DNA of 64,000 nucleotides from positions 56,208,229 through 56,272,228 of the forward strand of contig CM071570.1 in the NCBI GenBank assembly GCA_036426205.1, written 5' to 3'. The translations under genes were made by a program, and so were the position numbers. Positions within the stretch are counted from its first letter, which is position 1, and every line of letters begins with the position of its first letter. Shown one piece after another: positions 5,651-56,306 of this stretch. The notes beneath the pieces were generated by a model that did no database searches, was not told the DNA's origin, and saw only the letters and a program-made list of their open reading frames with translations. This DNA is from Ascaphus truei. Its lineage: Eukaryota > Chordata > Amphibia > Anura > Ascaphidae.

Positions 5651-8600
5651 TTTTTTTTTAGCACAGAACCGCGTGTGCTGCAGGGACGGCCATGAGTGAG
5701 TCGCCAGGGGGCAATATCCAGTCGCCAGGGGCGTCCAGGCGACTGGATTTGACGAACACTGTGTGTATATATATATATATCCCGGAGAGGCAGGTATTAT
5801 ACAGTTTTGAGCAAAGTACAACAGCTTAAAACTAGAAATTACAGGTGCCATTTGCATTTAGCCAGTTATATTGGCTCTCCACCACAATTTGCCTTAATAT
5901 TACTATTTTCATCATGGTCTCATATTTAGGGGTAAATTCTATATGCTCCAAAGTGGCAGTTTGGACTATTTTTGGCTGAAGATCCCCATTGAAGTCTTCA
6001 AAAAATGGTCCGAATAGGATTGTGTATATAAGGGGTACAATATCCCAGTAATGATTTACTATTATGAAGAAATATTGCTATAGCAATGCTTTTTTTCTAG
6101 AATACATACATTTGACCTTTGTTGTCTTTTTCTAACAACTGCTTTTTAGCTCAGACCTGATCGCAGTCATTGTGGGATCCTTAAAGTCTAGAATATTAAT
6201 CTGCATTGTAGACTGTGAGATTTGGGCTTTTGCTCATCACAGTGAGGCTTACTGGCCTATATATGCTTTAAAAACATACAGTACATTAAATGATAAAATC
6301 AAAGTAAAAAAACAGTAGACCATGTTTCATTGGACTTCCACGGCGCCCAAGAATTAACGCTCCGGGGGCCCCATTCAGAAGCATGGACTTCCCCCGCAGC
6401 TCCATCGCACCAGACTCTATCTTGGGCGCCGTGACCGCGTGGGGCAGTGACACCAAAGACACTTGAGATTGCTACAAAAATATATTGGCCAAGCAAAATT
6501 GTTATGCTACTGTAGCTATGTTTCAACCCCATGAAGTTTAAATAAAAGTGAGCAGTTCCTATTAGTTTGAAAAATGTTTAGCAGAAATGTAAATACACAT
6601 AAAAGTGTCTGTAATTTCCCAGAGCACTCGTATTTGCTTTTTTCAGTAAAAATGTAATAATAGTCAGAAGCATGTAAATGCTGTGCAGAAGGATGCATAA
6701 AAAAACATTATTTTCTGGTATAGTGCATGCATCTCATTAAGCAGTTTCTGTTGACATGCATCTGTGTTACAGATTGATTCAATTCATTTTAATCTGTATA
6801 GTGTCACATCATTTTAATCTGCATAATGTCGTATAATAAGTACACGGGTAAGTAGAATATCTAAACTGCAAATGACATACAGGTGTGTTTTATAACAGGT
6901 GGGGAAAAGGGTATATGTTGCTGTGATATGTACATTGTCAACCGCAAAATGTATGTAGCAATTGGTTGTTCTATATCTGTTTAACAACATAGACCTACGT
7001 TTTATATCTGCGTTTTATTTATTTTCTCTTGCACATTATACCAGTTGTTATTTAATATATCACAAGCAGCAACTGTGCTAAGCAGTAATTTTGTGTGTAC
7101 CATTGATTAGAGATTTAATTCTTTATCCTTTACTCATCTTGATTTTCCCCCCAAAAATCACGAATTGGAATAATTTCCCATATTCCACCTACTGTAGTTC
7201 TTTGCATGAGCAAATAACACATTTTTAAATAGTTTACTTGCCCTTTAAAAAAAATCATTTTTTGGTAAAGTAACTGTGCACACTGTAATAAAAAAAAACC
7301 AGAGACTGTACCACCAATGTTTATGTACAATACATGTACAGTGGTCTCTTTTGTGACCTTTATTGTTCATTTGTCATAGGCATAACAATGTATCTCACAT
7401 GATTTAGGTACTGACACATGGCAGATTAAGCATAGTGCAACATTGTATTAAAGATGGCAAAATTCAGTACACCTCAAGTGTGATAAGCATCAAGAACTCA
7501 TTTATCATATTTCTTTAGACTTCAGTTTTTTTTGTCCTACTTTTTGTCCTTTGTATAGGAGAACTAACATTAAAGCATTGTTGATGTTTTCAAAATAGAA
7601 TCTGTGTCTGCTTTGGCTGCTATTATGTTTTATTCAAGTGGCAAGTACCACCAAGCACAAGTCCTTTATATTTATTAAATAATCAAATAAATAAATTCAT
7701 AGTATCAAAAATGTGTATGGTTTATTGCCAACTTAAACAACTCTAACATTTACATTTGTGTTTGGGATATTCATAAACATTTCTTGCCACTGAAAACAAA
7801 CATTGTGGGATTTTTGTTTTTTAATCGAGCAAACATAAATTGTCACAATGTTTGTATAGTTTTGACATGATTCTTTTGTGATTAAACCTACTTGTTTTGC
7901 AACTCTCATATTTTATGGACACAATTGATTTTTGTAATATTTATAGCTGACCAGTAAATACTGCCAACAGATCATTAAACGATTTGTATTTAAAATGTCA
8001 TGTTCAACAGATGTAAATGTCATGTTCAACAGATGTAAATGCCATGTTCAACACTGAAAGGTTGCACAATGTGAAATATGCGTTTTGATATGCAAATAAT
8101 GCATTTATAGGAATAAATAGGAACAAAATACACTAATGATTTTAGTTTTGCTAGGTTTTTTTTTTGATTGCATTATATTTTAAGGTAAATTGTGTTACCA
8201 ATTGTGTCTGTAGACGGAGATTAAGCCCTTTATAAGGGTACTACACTTGTTACTAACTATATTGAACCTCATGCATAGAAATTCTGATGAAATAACCCGT
8301 TGATATGTAAAACAATAATTTCTTATACATTTCAATCAGTTTTGCAACATTGGAATAGATCTAAGAAAATATAATCATCATAAAACATGCTAGGGAGATT
8401 GTGCAAAGTAGCATGTGCTCCAACATCTTACAAGAGTGCATGGTAACTGGCCTTAGCATAGCATTAAAAACAGTGACGAGAGATCTTTTGGAGACATCAC
8501 TGCTTTCAAATTGATTAACATAGCTTGAACACCAATATCAAATCTTTGGCACCTTGGACAATGAAAACGAATGGGCAAGTTAAACATACAGGAACTATTT

Positions 8601-24059: not shown

Positions 24060-24455
24060 GATGTAAAAATGTGAGGTGTGTGTCCCGCTAGGGTGTGAGT
24101 GGGTGTGAGGCATCGGGTGGGTGTTCAGTACGGGTGGCGGGTGGGTAGTGGAGTGCTGGCTGTGGGTGGGAGTCCCGCTAGGGTGTGAGCGGGTGTGAGG
24201 TGGCGGGTGTCTTGTGAGTGCGTGCGGCGACTGGTCAGTGATGTCTGTGCGTAGGAGTGTGAGTGTGGTGGGTGGATGGGTGTGAGCAGGGAGGCGCCGG
24301 GTGGGTGGTGAGTGGGTGCGGCGGCTAGTCAGTGATGTCGGTGCGTAGGGGCGGGAGGCGGCGGGTGTGTGTCAGTGTGGCAGGTGGGTGAGAGGCGGCA
24401 GGTGTCTGTTGAGTGAGGGCGGCGGCTGTGGGGCGCAGGGGTGTGAGGCGGCGGG
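24060..24455. repeat. G/T-rich minisatellite, left part
   Basis: Degenerate units such as GTCCCGCTAGGGTGTGAG (24081 and 24171), GGCGGGTGGGTG and GGTCAGTGATGTCTGTGCG (24232, 24325). The same G-rich sequence type resumes at 25203 after a LINE copy, so the LINE inserted into it. Confidence 0.75.
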
Positions 24456-25202
24456 TATTGTATTGTATGTCTTTATTTATATAGCGTCATTAATGTACAT
24501 AGCGCTTCACAGTAGTAATACATGTGGTAATCGAATAAATAACAGATAATATAAATAACAGATCATGGGAATAAGTGCTTTAGACAAACATAACATTAAG
24601 GAAGAGGAGTCCCTGCCCCGAGGAGCTTACAATCTAATTGGTAGGTAGGGAGAACGTACAGAGACAGGAGGAGGGAGTTCTGGTAAGTGCGTCTGCAGGG
24701 GGCCAAGCTTTATGTATCATGTGTTCAGAATGTTCACAGTGCTATTCATATGCTTCTTTAAGCAAGTGTGTCTTAAGGTGGGTCTTAAAGGTGGATAGAG
24801 TGGGTGCTAGTCGGGTACTGAGGGGAAGGGCATTCCAGAGGTGTGGGGCAGTCAGTGAAAAAGGTTTAAGGCGGGAGAGGGCTTTAGATAAAAAGGGGGT
24901 AGAAAGAAGACATCCTTGAGCAGAACGCAAGAGTCGGGGTGGTGCATAGCGAGAAATTAGGGCTGAGATGTAAGGAGGGGCAGAAGAGTGTAAAGCTTTA
25001 AAAGGGAGGAGGAGAATGGAGTGTGAGATGCGGGATTTGATTGGAAGCCAGGAGAGGTATTTCAGGAGGGGAGATGCTGAGACAGATCTAGGAAAGAGTA
25101 GAGTGATTCTGGCAGCAGCATTTAGGATAGATTGTAGGGGAGACAGGTGAGAGGCAGGAAGGCCGGACAGCAGGAGGTTACAGTAATCAAGACGGGAGAG
25201 AC
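24456..25202 (-). mobile_element. 5'-truncated L2 LINE, C-terminal RT and 3' UTR
   Basis: It matches 27773-28510 of the nearly intact element through its whole length, from the TATTGTATTGTATGTC 3' end to AATCAAGACGGGAGAGA at the truncation. The minus frame at 24742-24930 encodes the last 62 residues ([19 protein letters not shown] end). 5' truncation is typical of target-primed reverse transcription. It splits the surrounding minisatellite. Confidence 0.92.
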
Positions 25203-27500: not shown

Positions 27501-27772
27501 GGGGGGTGGGGTTATGCATGCCAGACCTCTTACATATGATGCTGGTGTAAATTGATGCAGCTCAAACTTTTCTCAATGTTCTGGAGCAAATTGCTCCATT
27601 TTGATACATATGTCCCTTTAATACATACCATAACTGATAACTCTTCTTGGTGTCAATGTATCAAGGCAGTTTTGGATCAAAACCGTAACATTTTCACTCT
27701 GCACCTATGTACCAAAACATTTGGCTCAAATTTTGTCCAGTCTGCCCAAGCTTTCATCTTGGGGAGAGTCAG
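27501..27772. other. Flank of the L2 insertion, possible old MITE
   Basis: AT-rich with TGCAGCTCAAACTTTTCTC and TGGAGCAAATTGCTCCATTT, a short palindrome at 27580-27600. Family not recognised. Confidence 0.4.
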
Positions 27773-28049
27773 TATTGTATTGTATGTCTTTATTTATATA
27801 GCACCATTAATGTACATAGCGCTTCACAGCAGTAATACATGTGGTAATCCAATAAATAACAGATAATATAAATAACAGATCATGGGAATAAGTGCTTTAG
27901 ACATTAAGGAAGAGGAGTCCCTGCTCTGAGGAGCTTACAGTCTAATTGGTAGGTAGGGAGAACGTACAGAGACAGTAGGAGGGAGTTCTGGTAAGTGCGT
28001 CTGCAGGGGGCCAAGCTTTATGTGCCATGTGTTCAGAATAGCCACAGTG
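27773..28049 (-). mobile_element. L2 LINE 3' UTR and tail
   Basis: Runs from the stop codon of the reverse-transcriptase ORF to a CAATACAATACTG tail on minus. It contains GATTGTAAGCTCCT-like and AATAAAGACATACAATACAA blocks. Identical in layout to the truncated copy at 24456. Confidence 0.9.
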
Positions 28050-30131
28050 CTATTCATATGCTTCTTTAAGCAAGTGTGTCTTAAGGTGGGTCTTAAAGGT
28101 GGATAGAGAGGGTGCTAGTCGGGTACTGAGGGGAAGGGCATTCCAGAGGTGAGGGGCAGTCAATGAAAAAGGTTTAAGGCGGGAGAGGACTTTAGATACA
28201 AAGGGGGTAGAAAGAAGACATCCTTGAGAAGAACGCAAGTGTCTGGATGGTGCATAACGAGAAATTAGGGCTGAGATGTAAGGAGGGGCAGAAGAGTGTA
28301 AAGCTTTAAAAGTGAGGAGAAGAATGGAGTGTGAGATGCGGGATTTGATCGGAAGCCAGGAGAGGGATTTCATGAGGGGAGATGCTGAGACAGATCTAGG
28401 AAAGAGTAGAGTGATTCTGGCAGCAGCGATAAGGATAGATTGTAGCGGAGACAGGTGAGAGGCAGGAAGGCCGGACAGCAGGAGGTTACAGTAATCAAGA
28501 CGGGAGAGAATGAGGGCCTGAGTCAGAGTTTTAGCAGTCGAGCAACAGAGGAAAGGGCGTATCTTAGTTATATTGCGGAGGAAAAAGCGACAGGTTTTAG
28601 AAATGTTTTGAATGTGAGAGGCAAATGTGAGAGAGGAGTCGAGTGTGACCCCAAGGCAGCGTGCTTGGGCTATTGGGTGAATGATCATAGTTCCAACAGT
28701 AATGTGGAAGGAGGTAGTAGGGCCAGGTTTGGGAGGAAGTATGAGGAGCTCTGTTTTAGCCATGTTGAGTTTAAGGCGGCGGAGGGCCATCCAGGATGAT
28801 ATAGCAGAGAGACATTCAGAAACTTTGGTTTGTACAGCAGGTGTAAGGTCGGGTGTTGAGAAATATATTTGTGTGTCGTCAGCATAGAGGTGATAATTAA
28901 ACACAAAAGATGTTATTAGGTCACCTAGAGAGAGTGTATACAGAGAAAAGAGAAGAGGTCCCAGGACAGAGCCCTGGGGTACCCCCACAGAGAGATCAAT
29001 AGAGGAGGAGGAGGTATTAGCAGAAGAGACACTGAAAGTACGATGGGAAAGGTAGGATGAGATCCTGGATAGAGCTTTGTTCCGAATGCCAAGAGTATGG
29101 AGAATGTGAAGTAGAAGAGGGTGGTCCACGGTGTCAAATGCTGCAGAGAGGTCGAGTAATATGAGCAGAGTGTAATGACCTCTGTCTTTGGCAGCATGGA
29201 GGTCGTCAGTTATTTTAGTGAGGGCTGTTTCGGTGGAGTGAGCAGTGCGGACGCCAGATTGTAGAGGGTCTAGGAGAGAATAGGTGTTGAGAAAATGGAG
29301 CAAGCGAGCGAATACAAGACGTTCAAGGAGTTTAGAGGCAAAAGGCAGGAGGGAGACAGGCCGATAGTTAGAAAGACAGGTAGGGTCAAGCTTGCTGTTT
29401 TTGAGTAATGGTATGACTGTTGCATGTTTGAAGGAGGATGGAAAGGTTCCAGAGCAGAGGGAGGAGTTAAAAATGTGCGTGAGCGTAGGGATTATAGTAG
29501 GAGCAAGAGGTTTTAGGAGATGGGAGGGAATGGGGTCAAGAGGGCAAGTGGTAGAGGGAGAAGAGGCGATCAACAGCGACACATCCTCCTCTGAGACAGT
29601 GGAAAAAGAGTCAAGGAAGGCAGGAGGAGAGTTAGGAAGAGGTGTAGGATGGGAGGAAGAAACAGAGGGGATGTTCTGACGTATGGATTCCACCTTTTCC
29701 TTAAAATAGTCAGCAAAGTCCTGAGCGGAGATGGAGGAAGGAGAGGCAGCTGAGGGTGGTTTGAGTAGAGTATCAAAGACAGAGAACAGTCGGCGTGGGT
29801 TAGACTTGTGCATGTTGATTAGTGAAGAAAAGTAGGCTTGTTTAGCTTGCGAGAGGGCAGAGTTGAAACAGGATAGCATAAATTTGTAGTGAAGGAAGTC
29901 TGCGAGAGTATGAGATTTCCTCCAGAGGCGTTCAGAGGAACGAGTGGAGGAACGCAGCATGCGCGTGTGGGAATTTAACCAGGGTCTAGGGTTAGAAGTG
30001 CGAGTGCGGCAGAGAGAAAGCGGGGCATGTAGATCAAGAGAGGAGGACAAGGCAGAGTTGTAGTTCCTGACCAGTTTTTCAGGGTCTGTAGCAGAGCTGA
30101 GAGGAGAGGGAGGAGTGTAACGTGGACTCAA
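28050..30131 (-). CDS. L2-clade LINE reverse transcriptase (RT half of ORF2)
   Basis: A 693-codon open frame with a complete non-LTR reverse transcriptase. Motifs: NYRPVSLLP (255-263), [13 protein letters not shown] (325-337, first catalytic Asp 327), [12 protein letters not shown] (384-395), YADD (416-419) and the L2/CR1-type thumb region with LDYCN (545-549). It ends THLLKEAYE like the truncated copy at 24.7 kb. The first Met is an artefact: the domain is the continuation of the endonuclease frame (30079-31305), which overlaps by 53 nt one frame away, so a single indel near 30080-30130 separates them. It would copy element RNA by target-primed reverse transcription. The long undamaged frame indicates recent insertion. 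The frameshift may be a true inactivating mutation or a read error. Confidence 0.95.
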
Positions 30132-31305
30132 AGTCAGGTAAGTGAATAGAGCGCAGGTTTCTGCAGAACCGGGGGGTAGATGGAGGTGGAAAACGGGAGA
30201 AGCGAGATAGAGAGAATGAGATGAGGTGATGGTCAGAGAGAGGAAAGGGGAAAATGGAGAAATCAGAGAGAGAGAAGTTATTAGTGAAAACCAGGTCTAA
30301 GTAGTGGCCATCCTTGTGGGTGCTGGCTGCAGTCCACTGTTGAAGGCCAAAAGAAGAGGTTAGAGAAAGAAATAGGGAAGCCCAAGGGAGAGAGGGGTCA
30401 TCAATGTGGCAATTGAAGTCCCCAAGGAGAAGAACAGGGGAGTCTGAGGGGAGGAAGAAAGAGAGCCAGGATTCAAAGTGAGAGAGAAAGGCAGAAGGGG
30501 GATGAGTAGAGGTAGGTGGGCGATAGATGACCGCCACATGAACAGGGAGAGGAGAGAAGATCTGGACAGTGTGAACCTCAAAGGAGGGAAAGGCAAGAGA
30601 GGGTGGAATAGGAAGAGTTCGGTAACGGCAGAGAGAGGAGAGCAGGAGCCCCACACCTCCACCTCTGCAATCAGGGCGCGGAGTGTGGGAGAAGGAAAGG
30701 CCACCATAAGAGAGGGCAGCTTCCAGAGCAGAGTCAGACTGAGTGAGCCAGGTCTCAGTTATAGCAAAGAGAAGCAGGGAGTGAGAGAGAAAGAAGTCAT
30801 GCACAGAGAGGAACTTGTTAGAGAGGGAGCGAGCATTCCAAAGGGCACAGGAGAAAGGGAGAGAGGAGGGAGGGTGGCAGGGGATGGGTATGAGGTTGGA
30901 GGGGTTAACACCAGAAGGAGTAGAAGTTGTATGTGGGAGGCGAGGATGAGAGCAAGTAGAAATAAGGCAGGGACCAGGATTGGGAGAGATATCCCCAGAA
31001 GCAAGGAGGAGAAGCATGGATAGAAAGAGGATGTGTGAGGATGATTTATAGCGGTGTGTTTTAGTGCAGGGTGTATAGTTGTGCGGTGTCAGAGGGCGCA
31101 GGTAAGAAAGGAGTTCATGTGAACTGAGAAGTGGGGAAGAAAGGAGAGATGGAGATATATGAATAGAGTTGGAGACATAAGGAGACTGGTGGAAGGAAGT
31201 GCATAATTTGAAAATAAGTGAGGAGTTGGAAGAGTTATATGGTGCACAAAAAATAAATCCATATCTGAAATGGCGTAAGTCTAAAAGTCTGCATAAGTAA
31301 GACAA
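30079..31305 (-). CDS. L2-clade LINE endonuclease half with 2A-like motif
   Basis: A 408-codon frame holding the apurinic-like endonuclease that nicks target DNA. Catalytic signatures are all present: ALWNARSL (Asn157), ITETWL (Glu184), LLLGDFN (Asp296, Asn298) and LSDHH (Asp358, His359). Upstream, residues 104-112 read GDISPNPGP after a leucine-rich run ([11 protein letters not shown]), a 2A-like ribosome-skipping motif with Ser where canonical 2A has Glu. The frame stops at 30079 after LSSQLCYRP, where the reverse-transcriptase frame takes over. The Met at 31305 is the first in frame, but the true start is uncertain; residues 1-90 may be untranslated leader. No separate ORF1 is seen. Confidence 0.93.
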
Positions 31306-32390
31306 GTATTAGATATGCTGCAGCTCTGCTCCAAAGAACTTTCTTTTTATGTTAATACATAGACCCCCTTGTGTTAAAGGAAGTATGGCGTAATACCTAG
31401 GTGTATTTTAGTCTTACTAAATACTTCAAAGGAATAATGCAGAGTACATGAGTACGCTGCACTATTGCAACTGGACTAACACAGCTATTTCTACTTAATT
31501 CAAAGGAATAAAGAATTTAGGACATGGCTAGATGGGACATGAAACTTTTCCTTTGCCGAGGCATCACTTGACTAATGCCAAGTAACCCCATGTGCTTGCT
31601 TGCCCTGAAATGTCTGATTTGTTTTCCGTAGTCTTAATCTAAATAGGCTAACTTGTTAATATGGTTACATAATAGGTAGGAGGGTTTATTTAGTATGATG
31701 GAGGTTTCTTTAAAAATAGAAAAACTTTTAAACAAAATTTGAAAACTTTATGCAGGTTTATGCAGTGATTTTATGTGATTTAAATGTGTGCCATGCAGAT
31801 TATCCATGACCAATTACAGGAAAAAAAAGCAATAGAAATGTATAATGTGCGTTACTAGAATGTGTTGCCGTTTAATCCCAGATTAAAAAGCTAGGTTGAC
31901 AGAATTAATGTTTTTTTTTTTACCATGTTTAACTGTTTAAGTGAGTTTATTTTCTTAAATACATAATATATTTCAGTGGAATTTCTATTGAATAAACATT
32001 TGTTAGGTACTATTGCCAGTGTAGTATACAATAGTTTTCTTTTTAACAGGGAATATTCTTTAGCGTGAATGGTCTTTTCAATAATTATCCAGTATTTTTT
32101 TCAGTACACTAACTTAAATTGCCAGCAGCATGTGGGAAATCTCAAACTATTTAAGAAAAACCTCTCTAGTGAACTCATGAAGGTTGTAAACTCTCATGTT
32201 TAGCATAAACATTCCTAATGGTATGAAAGGCCAATGTTTTTTTTATTTGATGCAATTCTGAAAAAAAGTACATTTCCTTTTCTCTAAAATTAGCTTGAGA
32301 TCTGTGTACTTCTCAGTTTAGGAGAAGCCAGTTTACATTCAAACTGTCACAACTGCAGTATAGGGACGGTATGAGGGACATAGTTTGGAA
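31306..32390. other. AT-rich DNA, no feature recognised
   Basis: The L2 5' boundary lies near 31310; the first bases may still be element leader. Nothing else supportable. Confidence 0.45.
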
Positions 32391-38266: not shown

Positions 38267-38392
38267 ATAAGGTCCAGTAGTAATTATCTCAGATTGTTAT
38301 CACTATTTAAAAGGAGCAAGCATGCTTTTAGTAAGGAGTTCTCAGCATGTTAACTCTAGAGTATGTTTGGACTGTCCCAACCAGGAATCTGG

Positions 38393-38503
38393 AGTACAAA
38401 ATCAGAGGAAGGTTCACCTGTTCCTCCAGCAATGTTGTGGACCTTATCATGTGCATGAAATGCCCAGGGGGCTGCTACTACATACAGTAGGTGAGACAGT
38501 GAT
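38393..38503 (+). pseudogene. Penelope-like element, start of GIY-YIG endonuclease region
   Basis: Translated from 38393 this gives a peptide with RNLEYKIRGRFTCSSSNVV, then LIMCMKCPGGCYYIQ, a stop at 38488, then VRQ. It matches the linker and GIY-YIG start of Penelope-like elements (expected GGxYYIGxT), with the second Gly/Thr region broken by the stop. The nucleotide sequence is nearly identical to 53641-53715, so both derive from the same family. Only about 37 codons survive. Confidence 0.75.
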
Positions 38504-39300: not shown

Positions 39301-39610
39301 ATGGGTTAAAAGTATCTACTAGCTCTATTATTAACCTTTTCAAGTATGGGTGCAAATGTAATGTTAAACTATTACCATCATATGAGGATGAAATTATATC
39401 TGAACTTAACACTGTCACTAATTACTTAATTTGATTTTCATTTTGTTTGAAGCGTGCCTTACTTTATTCAGTACATTTGTAATTACAAGTCAAATGATAC
39501 ACATTAGTACTACAGCATATTTGAAAAATAAGTTGTAAAATAATTTTTACATGAAACCGTTAGAAGCAAATGCTTCGTTTTTCACAGTTTTTAAGCAGAA
39601 CATTTGATTA

Positions 39611-39698
39611 AATGCAAAGCCAGTCAAACCACTCACAGACCACTGTTTCGACCTTGTGGTTCTCATCAGTGGGAAGTTGGTTGTACTGGCTTTGCAAT
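39611..39698 (-). ncRNA. Type I hammerhead ribozyme motif, minus strand
   Basis: Read on minus: CTGATGA at 39669-39663, stem II GA(A)CC-ACAA-GGTC, GAAAC at 39649-39645, a 2-bp stem III with AGTG loop, and GTC with predicted cleavage after C39638. All core nucleotides (CUGAUGA, GAA, A-U, C17) and the G-C pair at the base of stem II are present. Stem I pairs CCCA/TGTG imperfectly, then ACCA/TGGT, and an outer exact 12-bp inverted repeat (39613-39624 with 39685-39696) locks it. A very short stem III is the form used by Penelope/retrozyme hammerheads, which act as dimers. Confidence 0.7.
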
Positions 39699-39731
39699 TT
39701 TCCAGGCTGGGTAGGTTTAATATATAGAAAA

Positions 39732-39925
39732 ATGGTAAAAAAAAAAAACCCTGAAGCACAACTTTGCCAAGAACTGGTGTAGACGAAGACCAAAATGAAA
39801 GATTTATTGGATTAAAACATAACAAAAAACGGTCCTGTCAGATCCTCTTCTTTATCTTTAATTTTGGTCTTCGTCTACACCAGTTCTTGGCAAAGTTGTG
39901 CTTCGGATTTTTTTACCATTTTCCT
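39732..39925. repeat. Inverted repeat with ~60-bp arms
   Basis: AAGCACAACTTTGCCAAGAA continuing to GACGAAGACCAAAAT (39757-39798) is inverted at 39863-39905 (TTTTGGTCTTCGTCTACACC onward). Poly-A and poly-T lie at the outer ends. The left arm abuts the upstream side of the minus-strand hammerhead. Confidence 0.85.
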
Positions 39926-40516
39926 ATCCATTGAGCATGCGCCTGGATTCACGCTGAGCTGGAGAATATTGGATGTTTTCATCTTCTGTTTCTGCGCTCT
40001 GGGAATTGAGCAGAGACTTCAGTTTGAGCCCAGCTACGTGACGCACGGCTGCTTCACCTGGAGGTTCCAGTCACTACGACGACGCTCGCACCACGTGACA
40101 GCGGACACAGACGGAACCTCTACCGGAGCTGTACCCGCGACTACCGAGGTCTCACGGAAGAGGACTCATCGCTTACCTCGTTTCCTCCGCACTGCTATGA
40201 ATGCGGCTTGGCGTCACTGGGCTGATTAAGCTCCCTCCTCCTCCCCTCGTTTGCTCTTCAAGCGACTAATCGTGAGTAAAATAAGCAACTAGATTGTTCT
40301 TATAAGGTTTAGCCAGTTGCTCCCAGGCTGGGATACAGAGTTTATGTTGATACTTCACATGGGATTGAGGAGTGGTACTACTTAAGTGAGTTACTGACAT
40401 TATTTATTTATGCTCATTAAGGAACTTCAGCTACCAAGATTGTTTTACATATGTTCTCTCATTGAGCTCCGACTCTATCAAGGGCTATCTTTAGCTCTGA
40501 CAAACAGTTCACTAGG

Positions 40517-40519: not shown

Positions 40520-40571
<52 letters not shown>

Positions 40572-40581
40572 AATATATATA
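40520..40581. repeat. (TA)n microsatellite
   Basis: About 60 bp of TA with few interruptions. Confidence 0.95.
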
Positions 40582-40591
40582 CAGTTTTTTT

Positions 40592-40810
40592 ATATTCCAG
40601 GCAAAAGGTGACACATTGTGTGCTCATTTGCATGTCACCTCCCAGAATCCCTTGCTGCAGTGGGAGCACTGTATGCGAGGTGATAATGGTTGGGGTTGCA
40701 GACCTGTCTAAGACATGTGAATGTGCTCACAAGTGATATTCTTTATTGGCTATATGCTAACGATGGAGGTTTTCTGTCGCCTTTTTCACCCACCATAACT
40801 TAAAATGTAT
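40592..40810 (+). promoter_or_regulatory. snRNA-type promoter in satellite unit, copy 1 (octamer, Staf-like site, PSE)
   Basis: Octamer ATTTGCAT at 40626-40633. The adjacent CTCCCAGAATCCCTTGCT (40639-40656) fits the Staf/ZNF143 consensus at 17 of 18 positions as I recall it. At 40792-40810 ACCATAACTTAAAATGTAT resembles the human U6 proximal sequence element (ACCGTAACTTGAAAGTATT). The octamer-to-PSE distance of about 160 bp matches vertebrate snRNA genes. No TATA box follows the PSE, so a Pol II-type snRNA promoter is favoured. A start about 50 bp downstream would fall in the ribozyme stem I region. An imperfect 21-bp inverted repeat (17/21) brackets the core (TTGTGTGCTCATTTGCATGT and its diverged inverse near 40735). 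Confidence 0.6.
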
Positions 40811-40836
40811 AGTAAACCTACCCAGCCTAGAAATAT

Positions 40837-40920
40837 TTCAAAGCAAGTTTATACCAACCTCACACTGATGATACCCATCAAGGTTGAAACATGTCTGTGA
40901 GTGGTTTAAACTTGCTTTGC
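40837..40920 (+). ncRNA. Type I hammerhead ribozyme motif, plus strand
   Basis: CTGATGA 40865-40871, stem II ACC-CATCAA-GGT, GAAAC 40886-40890, 2-bp stem III, GTC 40893-40895 with predicted cleavage after C40895. Stem I is perfect for 6 bp (CTCACA 40859-40864 with TGTGAG 40896-40901), then ACCA/TGGT across an internal loop, then an exact 11-bp outer stem (40840-40850 with 40908-40918). All core bases are present. The base of stem II is a T-T mismatch instead of G-C, which should lower activity. It shares the upstream AAACCTACCCAGCC block with the minus copy at 39.6 kb. Probable function: self-cleavage of satellite transcripts. Confidence 0.72.
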
Positions 40921-40990
40921 TAGTCCCATGCTGTGTTTAAATGCTGTGTGAACGGCGACACATCATCTTAAATGGGCTCCATGTGAATGG

Positions 40991-41204
40991 ATATTCCAGG
41001 CAAATGGTGACACATTGTGTGCTCATTTGCATGTCACCTCCCAGAATCCCTTGCTGCAGTGGGAGCACTGTATGCGAGGTGATAATGGTTGGGGTTGCAG
41101 ACCTGTCTAAGACATGTGAATGTGCTCACAAGTGATATTCTTTATTGGCTATATGCTAACAGTGGAGGTTTTCTGTCGCCATTTTCACCCATCATAACTT
41201 AAAA
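40991..41204 (+). repeat. Satellite unit promoter repeat, copy 2
   Basis: Matches 40592-40805 with about five differences in 214 bp, at an exact 399-bp spacing. It keeps the octamer (41025-41032), the Staf-like site and most of the PSE (ATCATAACTTAAAA). The copy then runs into an A tract and GT/TA microsatellites (to 41246) instead of a second ribozyme, so the array is a truncated 1.5-mer. Confidence 0.9.
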
Positions 41205-41212
41205 AAAAAAAA

Positions 41213-41246
<34 letters not shown>

Positions 41247-41939: not shown

Positions 41940-42540
41940 TTATTCTAATTAGTTTCCTCTTTCTGCTAGTATAGCAACCAACAATTTCCAGTTGTTTTGC
42001 CACCGTTACATTACAACACTGTTGTGTAAAGTGGTTGGCAATGGCATACAGATAGTAGATGGTTCTATCTGCTAGTTATCTAGGCATTATTTTCCAGTAG
42101 GTTTAACTCCATTACATTACACCACTGTCTGGTACAGTGATTGCATACAGATAGCACCGTATGACCTCCCTTTATTCTTTTGCTTGTCTACCAGTCAATC
42201 AGTTCCAGTTGGTTTAACACTGTTACATTACACTGGTGTTGGGTGATGTGGCTGGCATACCTATAGCTTCATCTCACCTGATTCTACTCTCTGCTAATAT
42301 ATTAGCCAATCAGTGCCAGTTGATTTAACACTTTTACATTACACCGGTTTTGGGTATACTGGTTGGCATACTGATCTTACTTCTCTTTGTGTAATATTAA
42401 GAATGTTTGTCCCATTTCTAAGTTATAATTGTTTTTTATGCTTATACCTATTTTAAGCACTTTTCATGCTTGATGTTATTTTATAATTTCACTGCTTATT
42501 TTTGCCATGGATGTATAAAAATCCAAAACCAAACAAAAAA
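41940..42540 (+). repeat. Interspersed repeat with internal ~115-bp units, locus 2
   Basis: About four diverged units: each has TTCCAGTTGnTTTnnCnCnG, TTACATTACAnCACTGnT, GGTTGGCATACnGATA and a CTAnTCAATCAG-type block. The downstream AT-rich tail (TTTTAAGCACTTTTCATGCT, CCAAAACCAAAC) is related to that of 21736-22330. Confidence 0.62.
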
Positions 42541-48764: not shown

Positions 48765-49055
48765 TTTATTCTATTCTGAGAAGAAATTCTGAAAACATGT
48801 CTACTCTTTTTATTTTCAAAGGACAGTAAATACAAATACCACGTGTGGTGCATTTGCACGTATCAGACAGGTCGGCAACCCGTTTTTTTTTCGCTTGGCA
48901 AACAGTGCTTCTAGTGCAGCTCAGGATTCTGGGTAATGACATGGAAATGAGTCTGTTCTTCACTCTTTACTTCTCATCCCTTTTAACATGGACCCCTATA
49001 AGCGTATGCCTGCTGTATTACACATCTTTTCAGCACAGCCTGGGTTAAAGACGTG
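48765..49055 (-). repeat. Diverged relic of the ribozyme satellite unit
   Basis: On minus: ACCCAGGCTGTGCTGAAAAG, GGTCCATGTTAAAAGGGATG, CTCATTTCCATGTCATTACC, CAGAATCCTGAGCTGCA, then CCGACCTGTCTGATACGTGC. Order matches 55938-56165 and the 40.9-41.15 kb unit. The octamer is mutated (ATTTCCAT). No hammerhead core remains. Confidence 0.7.
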
Positions 49056-49484
49056 CATAGCCAATAAACCTACTTGCAGACAGATGTCCCGACCTTTTGA
49101 GTCTCATTAATGCGAGGTTGGTTGCTGGCTATGCAGTGCGAAGCTGGTACATGGATATAACCAGACTTTGGTTTCTGTCTCTGTCTTTGTTTCTGGTTAC
49201 CCCTTTCTCCTGTCTTATTTGTCTCTTTATTATTAGTTATCCTCATCTGCTTTATCCCTCTCTCCCCCAAGTTTACTTTAAAAATCTGAAAAAAAAAAAA
49301 ATCCCTCCCTCTTGCATCCTTCGCCAATATGAAATGGTGGCAGGGGAAGGAAGGGGAGTGTTTATATTGAGGGGGAAATACAATATCTGAACTAGGCAAG
49401 AACCGAAAATGAGGTTTTGTTTCGGGTTTCAATTGAGTTGTGGTCATTCTCCCTCCACAGCAGAGGTAAATGAGAATTTTCACA
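49056..49484. other. No feature recognised
   Basis: The 198-codon minus frame 49070-49666 enters repeat family A and has no recognisable domain. Confidence 0.4.
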
Positions 49485-51255: not shown

Positions 51256-51557
51256 GGTTTACTGTGAGACTCCTCGAGCTTATTTCTTTCATGTAATTTG
51301 ATTCCTACCTGCCTTTAGAGATTGCTTTCTGCTGTATTAGGAGGAGGGAAGACCACTGCTCTCACAGCTGACAAATAACTGCGTTAAACAATTACACTCT
51401 ATTGGGCAATGCAACTCCTTCACAGATGCCACTTTAGATTTTAAACGCAAATACTTTTAGATTGGGGCAGTTACTGACATTATATTGATCATGTTACAAT
51501 CATAAAATAGTTTTTTCCCACACTGTTAATTGCTAGCTACACGTGTACATATATATA
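51256..51557 (+). repeat. Direct duplication, left copy
   Basis: From GGTTTACTGTGAGACTCC to GCTAGCTACACGTGTACATA, repeated at 52043-52337. The sequence itself looks unique rather than repetitive. Confidence 0.95.
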
Positions 51558-52042
51558 TATATATATAGATATATCATATATATATGAACAACAAGAAAAA
51601 GCGCCCGATCCTAGTGGCAGCATGAAAAAATACAATTTAATAAAATGATAAAAACAACAAATGCGAACCCAAACACAGGATAAATAAAAGCATATAATGA
51701 GTATACTCATTCGCCAACCGCCCACGATGTGCCTTGGATGGCGCCCTCCTCTCTGTCTAGGTTTTCTCAGCTCTTCTGAACCGACACCCAGCAGGGGATA
51801 CAGGAACAGCTCACCACAATGTGACCCGAAGTCCTCCAAATGTTAGTGTATTCCGATGTGAGGTCTGCGTCCGTGACCCCGCGATGCAGGGGCTGATCAA
51901 GAAGTCTCTCTGCACTCCCCAAAGACAGTCCGTAATGAGGTGGGCAGTGAGGATAGAGTAGAATTGGTATCACAGTGTGACAGCAGCTGAAAAACGCTCT
52001 TCCCTACGCGTTTCTTCACATAAAGTGATTTCATCCGGGGAA
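51558..52042 (-). mobile_element. Insert between duplicated flanks, Penelope/fold-back-type terminal sequence
   Basis: Begins after a TA tract with AACAACAAGAAAAAGCGCCC and ends ATTTCATCCGGGGAA. On minus the right end reads CCGGATGAAATCACTTTATG, then TGAAGAAACGCGTAGGG: a hairpin followed by GAAACGCGTAGGG, the degenerate hammerhead-like motif common in amphibian repeats. No coding region. Confidence 0.5.
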
Positions 52043-52331
52043 GGTTTACTGTGAGACTCCTCGAGCTTATTTCTTTCATGTAATTTGATTCCTACCTGCC
52101 TTTAGAGATTGCTTTTGCTGTATTAGGAGGGGAAGACCCACTGCTCTCACAGCTGACAATAACTGCGTTAACAATTAAACTCTATTGGCAATGCAGCTCC
52201 TTCACGAGGCCACTTTAGATTTAAACGCAATACTTTAGATTGGGGCAGTTACTGACATTATATTGATCATGTTACAATCATAAAATAGTTTTTTCCCACA
52301 CTGTTAATTGCTAGCTACACTTGTACATATA

Positions 52332-52337
<6 letters not shown>
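52043..52337 (+). repeat. Direct duplication, right copy
   Basis: Differs from the left copy mainly by single-base losses in short homopolymers (for example CTTTTGCTG for CTTTCTGCTG, GACAATAACT for GACAAATAACT, GATTTAAACGCAATAC for GATTTTAAACGCAAATAC). That pattern suggests uncorrected long-read sequence. Confidence 0.95.
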
Positions 52338-52372
<35 letters not shown>

Positions 52373-53157: not shown

Positions 53158-53239
53158 CCTGTTATTTTTGTTGAACAAGCACCTATTTCTTTGGAGCCTT
53201 TGAAGTGCCTGCTGTTATCTTTATCTTTATATATATATA

Positions 53240-53330
53240 TATATGCAAATACAACTGTATGCTCATCTGCATGTCTTAGGCAGGTCTGCAACCCCACCTT
53301 TCCCCATCATCACCCAGCATATATATATAT
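53240..53330. repeat. Fragment of the satellite unit
   Basis: ATGCTCATCTGCATGTCTTA followed by GGCAGGTCTGCAACCCC, the two ends of the promoter repeat brought together by an internal deletion, flanked by TA tracts. Confidence 0.6.
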
Positions 53331-53335
53331 ATATC

Positions 53336-53880
53336 CTTGAATACAGACAGAAAGTAACAAGCAACAGGGTACCTTTGTTGGACACATATAACCCACACCT
53401 AGAAGCCCTACGCAAGATTGCCAGCGAACTACAACCCATTCTCCAGAAAGTTACAAGATTGTTACAGGTCTTCCCTGAAACACCCTTATTATCATACAGA
53501 CAACCTCATAATCTCAAGAAAATGATGGTGAGGAGTAAAGTATTCAACAGTACAACTAAATGCGGGACAAGACCATGCCAGGACGCAAGGTGCAAAATCT
53601 GTGCAATGCTCCACACAGCAGGCACAATACAAATACCACACAGGAATCTGGAGTACAAAATCAGAGGAAGGTTCACCTGTTCCTCCAGCAGTGTCGTGTA
53701 CCTCATCATGTGCATGAACGATCTGAAGGTGGCCATACTCAAAGGTTATCTTAGAACACCGAAAGAGAGACGGTTGCATGAATACAAATTTATGCAACTG
53801 TTCGGGACACTTACTGTAGCGGTGGCCTAAACCAAGACCACAGCTTCATGAGTCACTACTGACACAAGAAAACTCTCTTC
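53336..53880 (+). pseudogene. Penelope-like element, RT C-terminal/linker and broken GIY-YIG region
   Basis: The frame to 53830 includes RVPLLDTYNPHLEAL, FPETPLLSYRQPHNLKKMM, a cysteine cluster GTRPCQDARCKIC and RGRFTCSSSSVVYLIMC. This order matches the region between reverse transcriptase and GIY-YIG endonuclease of Penelope-like elements. After MCM a frameshift occurs; in other frames EGGHTQRLS and SGGLNQDHSFMSHY recover the rest of the endonuclease end. The reverse-transcriptase core is absent, so this is a 5'-truncated dead copy. Penelope enzymes transpose by a telomerase-like reverse transcriptase with its own endonuclease. Confidence 0.82.
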
Positions 53881-55210: not shown

Positions 55211-55937
55211 GTGGAGGGAGGACAGGCAGGTGAGAGTTCCTATTATCAAACGGAGCATGAGGGTAAGTATTCCTTCGACTGCTAAGATCGCTTTCAGCCC
55301 TCCCAGGGAGTTGTGAACATGAGCTCTCCTGCAAACAGGCAAAATAACTTGTGATCAACTGGGCGTCACAAGAAAATCAAAGGGTTAACCGGAAAATTCC
55401 TTTAAATACCACCACTTTTTAGCTTTTTTTTCTCTATAGTATCAAATCTCATTTATCCAAATTACTGACATGTTATTTTTTTTTATTGTCCAAAAAACTG
55501 TTTTCTAGAGATGTGTACTAACAGAAAAATTACTTTATAAGCAGACAATATCACTGCTGTGAAACCTCACAACCCAGTCTTAAAAGCCGTATCTAGTTGG
55601 CCTTTCTCGCCATCCCTCCTTGAATAATCTATTGCTTAAATCAGTTTACCTGTGAAGGTTAAATGATTTATACCACTGTAGCAACTCCAGCAGTTTTATG
55701 GATCAACCATGCTAGAAGGAAAATTGAGCTTGTTGACTTGACAGCCATGATTTTGATTTTCTCTAATAGACAGCTCTACCTTAATTAACTTTGAAATAGG
55801 AGCAGATAAATAGTTTTAGTAATATTGATTACAGATCACTAAATTGTACGACATTATCCAATGCTGTTCAGCATTAATCTTGTTTAAGAAATTCTGTGTC
55901 ATATTTCGTAACTGGCTATATACAGTATAATCTTCTT
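55211..55937. other. Possible conserved non-coding segment 55640-55910
   Basis: 55640-55910 lacks repeats and is dense in developmental-factor-like cores (CCTTAATTAACTTTG, GCATTAATC). No coding potential. Impression only. Confidence 0.25.
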
Positions 55938-56165
55938 CAACCCAGGCTGTGCTGAAAATCTGTGTAATACGGCAGACATGAGCTTATAGGGTTCCATGTT
56001 AAAATGGATATGAAGTAAAGAGAGACTCACTGTGAGTGCTCATTTGCATGTCATTACCTAGAATTCCTGGCTGCAGTGGAAGCACGGTTTGCTAAATGAT
56101 AATGGGGAAAGACAGGGTTGACCTGTCTGAGACATGCAAATGCACCACAAGTGATATTACTATTT
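55938..56165 (+). repeat. Diverged satellite unit with intact octamer
   Basis: AACCCAGGCTGTGCTGAAAA, GGTTCCATGTTAAAATGGAT, octamer ATTTGCAT at 56042-56049, CTAGAATTCCTGGCTGCAG, and GACCTGTCTGAGACATGC. Same order as 40.92-41.15 kb. The PSE and the hammerhead are not recognisable. Confidence 0.75.
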
Positions 56166-56306
56166 ACTATATTTCTTAACCAATGCTTAAAAATAAGAGA
56201 TACACAGGCACTTTGCTTGTATATCAAAATACTTGCGGGTGCTGAGCTCACAGGGTGGTCTCCCAAATATCCAGATGAGGAGTAACACGCCAAAGTCATT
56301 GATCAT

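Follow-up and report, generated by a model that had tools for sequence, protein, structure and literature searches.

The window analysed here, a 64-kb stretch of DNA from the frog Ascaphus truei, contains an insertion in which a short module A lies between two copies of a module B (Table 1). Two direct repeats of 214 bp, about 98% identical and spaced 399 bp apart around a 185-bp spacer, had been predicted at this place from the sequence letters, and this arrangement is borne out: the module B copies are 214 nt each and differ at five positions (97.7% identity). (AT)n runs lie on both sides of the insertion, whose right end passes into A's, (GT)n and (TA)n. The GC content of the unit is 42.6%, below the 45% criterion for metazoan non-LTR retrozymes. 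No ORF of at least 130 amino acids overlaps the insertion, and no clear target-site duplication could be seen by eye at its ends. Because one hammerhead and 1.54 units are present, this locus alone would be unable to release a unit-length RNA. The unit had been called satellite-like, which holds in that a hammerhead lies within a repeat as in satellite 2 and retrozymes, but not in the arrangement: the insertion comprises 1.54 units of 399 bp, each of the four other copies in the window is partial and stands singly, and no tandem array of the satellite 2 type (about 330-bp units) occurs in the 64 kb.

Table 1. Coordinates of the insertion, its elements and the related copies in the 64-kb window
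Feature	Position	Strand	Remarks
Whole insertion	40592–41204	+	613 bp, arranged B-A-B; 1.54 units of 399 bp
Module B, first copy	40592–40805	+	Octamer, ZNF143-like site, hairpin, most of the PSE-like box
Long RNA hairpin	40612–40735	+	Predicted fold; main arm includes the octamer
Octamer ATTTGCAT	40626–40633	+	Second copy 41025–41032
ZNF143/Staf-like site CCCAGAATCCCTTGC	40641–40655	+	Second copy 41040–41054
PSE-like box CACCATAACTTAAAATG	40791–40807	+	Second copy from 41190
Module A	40806–40990	+	185-bp spacer between the module B copies; hammerhead inside
Extended type I hammerhead	40839–40919	+	Core CTGATGA..GAAA..GTC; three helices, helix I open
Self-cleavage site (predicted)	40895/40896	+	After C17; inferred from the hammerhead fold
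Module B, second copy	40991–41204	+	209/214 identical to the first; 3′ end is an A-run
c395, diverged copy	39546–39724	-	Module A only; hammerhead core intact, 39613–39697
c488, diverged copy	48829–49136	-	Ribozyme region from 49136 with mutated core, plus octamer block
c532, fragment of module B	53248–53321	-	Between two (AT)n runs
c559, diverged copy	55925–56172	+	Octamer, ZNF143-like site, hairpin; without ribozyme core and PSE-like box

All core bases of a type I hammerhead and a perfect 6-bp inner stem I had been claimed for the spacer, and both could be located, CTGATGA at 40865–40871, GAAA at 40886–40889 and C17 at 40895, with the inner stem formed by 40859–40864 and 40896–40901. The position of C17 also agrees with the cleavage point named in advance, which is predicted from the fold. 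The outer stem is present as well, but with 13 contiguous bp (40839–40851/40907–40919) instead of exactly 11, and a 4-bp middle helix lies between the inner and outer parts of stem I. Helix II opens with a basal U.U, after which come three pairs, and helix III is either a single A-U pair capped by a palindromic CAUG or, alternatively, two pairs with a two-base loop. A relaxed hammerhead descriptor matched once in the window and eight times in 200 simulated windows, none of the eight simulated matches (0/8) having three stem II pairs as the window copy has; since the descriptor requires five pairs in inner stem I, diverged copies are missed by it. The 84-nt hammerhead stretch folds at z -5.9, and in its predicted minimum-energy fold part of the core is paired otherwise than in the active fold. 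In a search with 101 bases, Rfam Hammerhead_HH9 (RF02275) was matched at 26.0 bits (E 5.4e-5), short of the curated cut-off of 52 bits. At the gathering cut-off there was no Rfam match in the 64 kb, and a search with 1001 bases at E up to 10 did not list the hammerhead, a difference from the 101-base search that is taken to be due to search filters.

Four further loci in the window are related to the element, with local-alignment scores of 79.9 (c395), 90.2 (c488, over 49122–48829), 102.3 (c559) and 33.5 (c532), where 50 mononucleotide shuffles per locus never exceeded 16.7; a profile search recovers the same four. The ribozyme region is present at three of the five loci, the window copy (that is, the insertion), c395 and c488, and its core is intact in two of these three. 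In c395 the core is kept, helix III has two pairs and a tetraloop, and HH9 is matched at 16.6 bits (E 0.12). In c488 the core has decayed to TTAATGA and GGGA while most of stem I is retained, and no Rfam match was obtained at E up to 10. A hammerhead covariance model had been proposed as a check, and HH9 stays below its cut-off. Covariation speaks in favour of the hammerhead: when the three copies are aligned, 92.4% of 79 cells are paired, three pairs have changed in both partners and pairing in the outer helix reaches 100%, against 23.6–38.0% paired and no two-sided change when the partners are slid by one to three columns. Shuffles reached the observed percentage paired in 37 of 500 cases, the number of two-sided pairs in 20, the covariation score in 28 and the pair types in 147, a modest control for a covariation that rests on three sequences from which the structure itself was drawn. 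A covariance model trained on the three copies recovers just these, matches their locations again on the opposite strand, owing to the long stem, and gives one weak further match at 7551 (E 0.18). Judged from its sequence, the segment in module A is a complete type I hammerhead, and its homologous copies covary.

The other copies differ from the window copy by 21–33%, while the two module B copies differ from each other by 2.3%, which points to long activity of the family. With the base that follows the cleavage point as position 1 of the unit, the window copy starts at 96, makes a full turn and ends at 309; c395 extends from 312 to 92, c559 from 9 to 259, c488 from roughly 341 to 251 and c532 from 176 to 244. 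The alignment of c559 thus begins about 8 nt beyond the cleavage point of the unit. c395 coincides nearly exactly with module A, the complement of module B, perhaps by chance. None of the copies in the window shows the fixed 3′ end expected of a simple SINE. An extent of more than one unit together with varying copy ends would fit copying from a circle or a multimer. Searches with the octamer-block pattern in viral contigs and in genome contigs returned no match in either.

Module B carries elements that resemble an snRNA-type promoter. CCCAGAATCCCTTGC is named after what we take to be the ZNF143/Staf motif. An octamer, this site and a PSE-like element about 160 bp downstream had been predicted, and all were located (Table 1), the ZNF143-like site starting 15 bp and the PSE-like box 165 bp from the start of the octamer; in the second PSE-like box one base is changed (41192) and the last two are missing at the end of the repeat. 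Among the ten octamers on both strands of the window, three, those of the two module B copies and c559, are accompanied by a ZNF143-like site. By comparison, none of 547 octamers in 100 simulated windows had such a site, and none (0/547) had the PSE-like pattern at 130–200 bp. The octamer of c488, ATTTCCAT, has one mismatch.

The PSE-like box is less distinctive. Its human H1 PSE score is 11 in the first module B and 7 in the second, compared with 4 in c559, 6 in c488 and 5 in the stretch before c395, where an unrelated palindrome occupies the expected place. With a PSE-like pattern of 12 positions that was composed after the sequence had been seen, the matches are 11 in both module B copies, 8 in c559, 9 in c488 (at 170 bp) and 6 in c395. 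A best H1 PSE score of 11–13 was reached in 10 of 10 simulated windows, so that a score of 11 is unremarkable window-wide, and random 86-nt zones of the window reached it in 4 of 2000 cases. The box is notable for its place alone, 165 bp from the octamer. A box comparable to that of the window copy is found in none of c559, c488 and c395, and none of these three retains both a PSE and a hammerhead, as further copies had been expected to do. Of the original prediction, the snRNA-type promoter is less well backed than the hammerhead: its octamer and ZNF143-like site recur in c559, but the PSE-like box does not.

A DSE is often composed of an octamer and a ZNF143 motif (PMC3499247), and is normally located at -250 to -170, with the PSE about 40–70 bp before the start (PMC9652321). 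A start near 40850 would put the octamer near -225, and would itself fall within the 5′ strand of the outer stem of the hammerhead. Pol III promoters of this kind have a TATA box 15–19 bp past the PSE and those of Pol II have none (PMC7949045). A type 3 Pol III promoter was rejected, as no TATA box lies 15–19 bp past the PSE-like box.

The octamer is also part of a predicted RNA hairpin. The segment 40610–40740 folds at -58.8 kcal/mol (z -5.4) on the + strand, none of 200 shuffles being as good, and its complement at -40.3 (z -2.4). The corresponding block of c559 has z -5.0 on the hammerhead strand versus -4.3 on the other, a small difference, and in that of c488 the hairpin is gone (z -0.2). 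The main arm comprises 12 pairs, in which the window copy shows two one-sided changes, both to G-U and pairing on the hammerhead strand alone; in c488 there is one more G-U and two of the 12 pairs are broken, yet most of its octamer and CCCAGAATCC is retained. Given a stable hairpin with G-U changes, part of the apparent promoter conservation may be conservation of RNA. Folded as a circle, the whole unit has z -4.9 (+) and -2.6 (-), with 65% of its bases paired (shuffles 62%), and self-pairing above 70% is quoted for retrozymes (PMC4918200). One of 25 random pieces of the window lies lower than the circle's z and three more are at -4.91, -4.44 and -4.30, so that in this repeat-rich window the circle fold is weak evidence.

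The neighbourhood contains other repeats. A LINE at 28050–31308 (-) encodes a reverse transcriptase (PF00078, E 5.6e-33) and an endonuclease (PF03372, E 6.6e-15) in two overlapping frames, and its 3′ part (27772–28509) has a 94.5% identical copy at 24455–25201. Translated fragments at 53204–53830 (+) and 38382–38459 (+) resemble what we take to be Penelope-like elements; no Pfam match was found for them, including the ORF 53204–53827. The former frame contains c532 in its first part, and the latter lies 1.1 kb from c395. Penelope-like elements have been proposed as partners of retrozymes (PMC7229834). A long palindrome (39724–39927, 75% self-match) adjoins the 5′ end of c395, at the expected PSE place. 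Beginning 750 bp past the element, 41954–42368 consists of four tandem copies spaced 106, 111 and 111 bp apart, of which three are 67–74% like the first over 87 bp, and a direct repeat of about 330 bp, 94% identical, is formed by 51256–51585 and 52043–52364. Two of the five element loci have (AT)n runs on both sides (40521–40581 and 41222–41246 for the insertion, and both flanks of 53248–53321), a pattern that could reflect a preference in insertion or be a by-product.

Metazoan non-LTR retrozymes are short tandem units (about 150–400 bp) present as a dimer or more, with a hammerhead in each unit. The newt element of this kind, satellite 2, has an snRNA-type promoter that was reportedly first described by Coats et al. 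in 1994. Satellite 2 of newts and salamanders consists of units of about 330 bp with a hammerhead and an snRNA-type promoter (PMC7229834, PMC6155905, PMC2837043, PMC2220036). It shares with the present element an extended type I hammerhead whose very weak helix III has a palindromic loop (PMC7229834, PMC6155905), by description an octamer-PSE layout, and more than one unit in tandem, whereas the present unit is 399 bp long and occurs as a dispersed 1.54-unit copy, not an array; the two are likened by description, not by sequence. The axolotl retrozymes Rtz_331 and Rtz_353 have units of about 330 and 350 bp; helix III of HHR_Amex1 is a single pair with a palindromic tetraloop, and in HHR_Amex2 helix II starts with a U.U at its base; cleavage is far more efficient in dimeric constructs, and circular forms occur in tissue (Cervera and de la Pena, 2020; PMC7229834). 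Set beside these descriptions, the present element has the Amex1-type helix III, the Amex2-type U.U and a GC content below 45%, but combines both traits in one ribozyme and has a longer unit. The main text of that paper does not mention frogs, Xenopus or Anura. Interspersed hammerhead repeats have been described in Xenopus tropicalis as strikingly like the ribozymes in the C10 and RECK introns of vertebrates (Perreault et al., 2011; PMC3088659), and by this description they share with our element a hammerhead in an interspersed repeat, HH9 being the best Rfam match here. The element shares with HH9 itself the core and the stem I layout, but scores 26 bits against the cut-off of 52 and lies within a repeat. 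A search of the open-licence literature gave no paper since 2020 on hammerhead retrozymes of frogs, and among the titles listed for a broader search none names a frog element, which does not imply their absence from print.

In our view the insertion is probably (at roughly three in four) a rather young copy, 1.54 units long, of a non-coding, dispersed hammerhead retroelement of the animal retrozyme or salamander satellite 2 kind. The repeat family in the window, the ribozyme fold with its covariation and the hairpin are observed here, and transcription, cleavage, circularisation and reverse transcription of the element are inferred. Source loci with at least two units would be transcribed, perhaps from an internal snRNA-type promoter in which the octamer and ZNF143 site are followed by the PSE, with a start about 40–70 bp after the PSE and near the hammerhead. 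The hammerheads would then cut the multimeric transcript, dimers working best since helix III consists of a single A-U pair whose CAUG loop is self-complementary. The resulting 399-nt RNA, held by the long hairpin, would be ligated to a circle, which a LINE- or PLE-type reverse transcriptase would copy beyond one full turn before insertion of the cDNA. Counting against the retroelement reading are the lack of a clear target-site duplication, the decayed core of c488, the lack of an Rfam match at the gathering cut-off and the PSE-like box without counterpart in the three other copies.

That the hammerhead-like motif arose by chance is scarcely credible: the eight descriptor matches in simulated windows could be cited for it, but the covarying homologous copies and the HH9 match contradict it. 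It is unlikely, if less so, that the insertion is a dead SINE-like or MITE-like repeat with an inherited hammerhead, the direct repeat being a later local duplication made without any circle. The single, partial nature of the other copies, the inverted and direct repeats in which the surroundings are rich, and the restriction of c395 to module A (312 to 92), which is what module B leaves of the unit, are what such a repeat might leave; yet two of the three ribozyme copies have an intact core and stem I shows compensatory changes, and both the B-A-B order and the varying ends agree with a copy that went beyond one turn.

Quite conceivable, though somewhat short of an even chance, is that the octamer, ZNF143-like site and PSE-like box form no promoter at all, the octamer being conserved as an arm of the RNA hairpin and transcription reaching the element by read-through from its neighbourhood. 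This agrees with the better folding of the octamer block on the hammerhead strand in two copies (z -5.4 and -5.0 versus -2.4 and -4.3), with the two one-sided changes to G-U in the main arm of the window copy, with a PSE-like box that is absent from three other copies and whose whole-window score is no better than chance, and with a review that describes retrozymes as apparently promoterless (De la Pena et al., 2020; PMC7761336). However, a hairpin does not need CCCAGAATNCCTTGC beside the octamer, and all three CCCAGAATNCCTTGC sites of the window (two mismatches allowed; two of them independent) lie 15 bp downstream of an octamer. Moreover, c488 has lost the hairpin but kept most of the octamer and CCCAGAATCC, the 165-bp spacing and the lack of a TATA box 15–19 bp past the PSE-like box fit a Pol II snRNA promoter, and newt satellite 2 is cited as carrying such a promoter (PMC2220036).

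Hammerhead-bearing repeats of this kind are already known, including interspersed ones in Xenopus (PMC3088659). Two features could be new: an internal promoter of the snRNA type in a non-salamander element of this kind, and the double use of a palindrome as enhancer and RNA hairpin. According to one source retrozymes seem promoterless (PMC7761336), while another cites an snRNA-type promoter for newt satellite 2 (PMC2220036), and a dispersed copy with an octamer, a ZNF143-like site and a PSE-like box at snRNA spacing makes the question of a retrozyme promoter directly testable. The element also bears on the proposed link between amphibian hammerhead repeats and the intronic ribozymes of amniotes (PMC3088659). 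A more far-reaching reading, which we regard as rather doubtful, is that of a retrozyme outside salamanders that brings its own snRNA-type promoter and uses one palindrome twice, as an octamer/ZNF143 enhancer in DNA and as a circle-shaping hairpin in RNA. If this doubtful reading were true, satellite 2 of amphibians, the hammerhead repeats of Xenopus and the ancestor of the intronic HH9 of amniotes would belong to one old lineage of self-promoting RNA circles.
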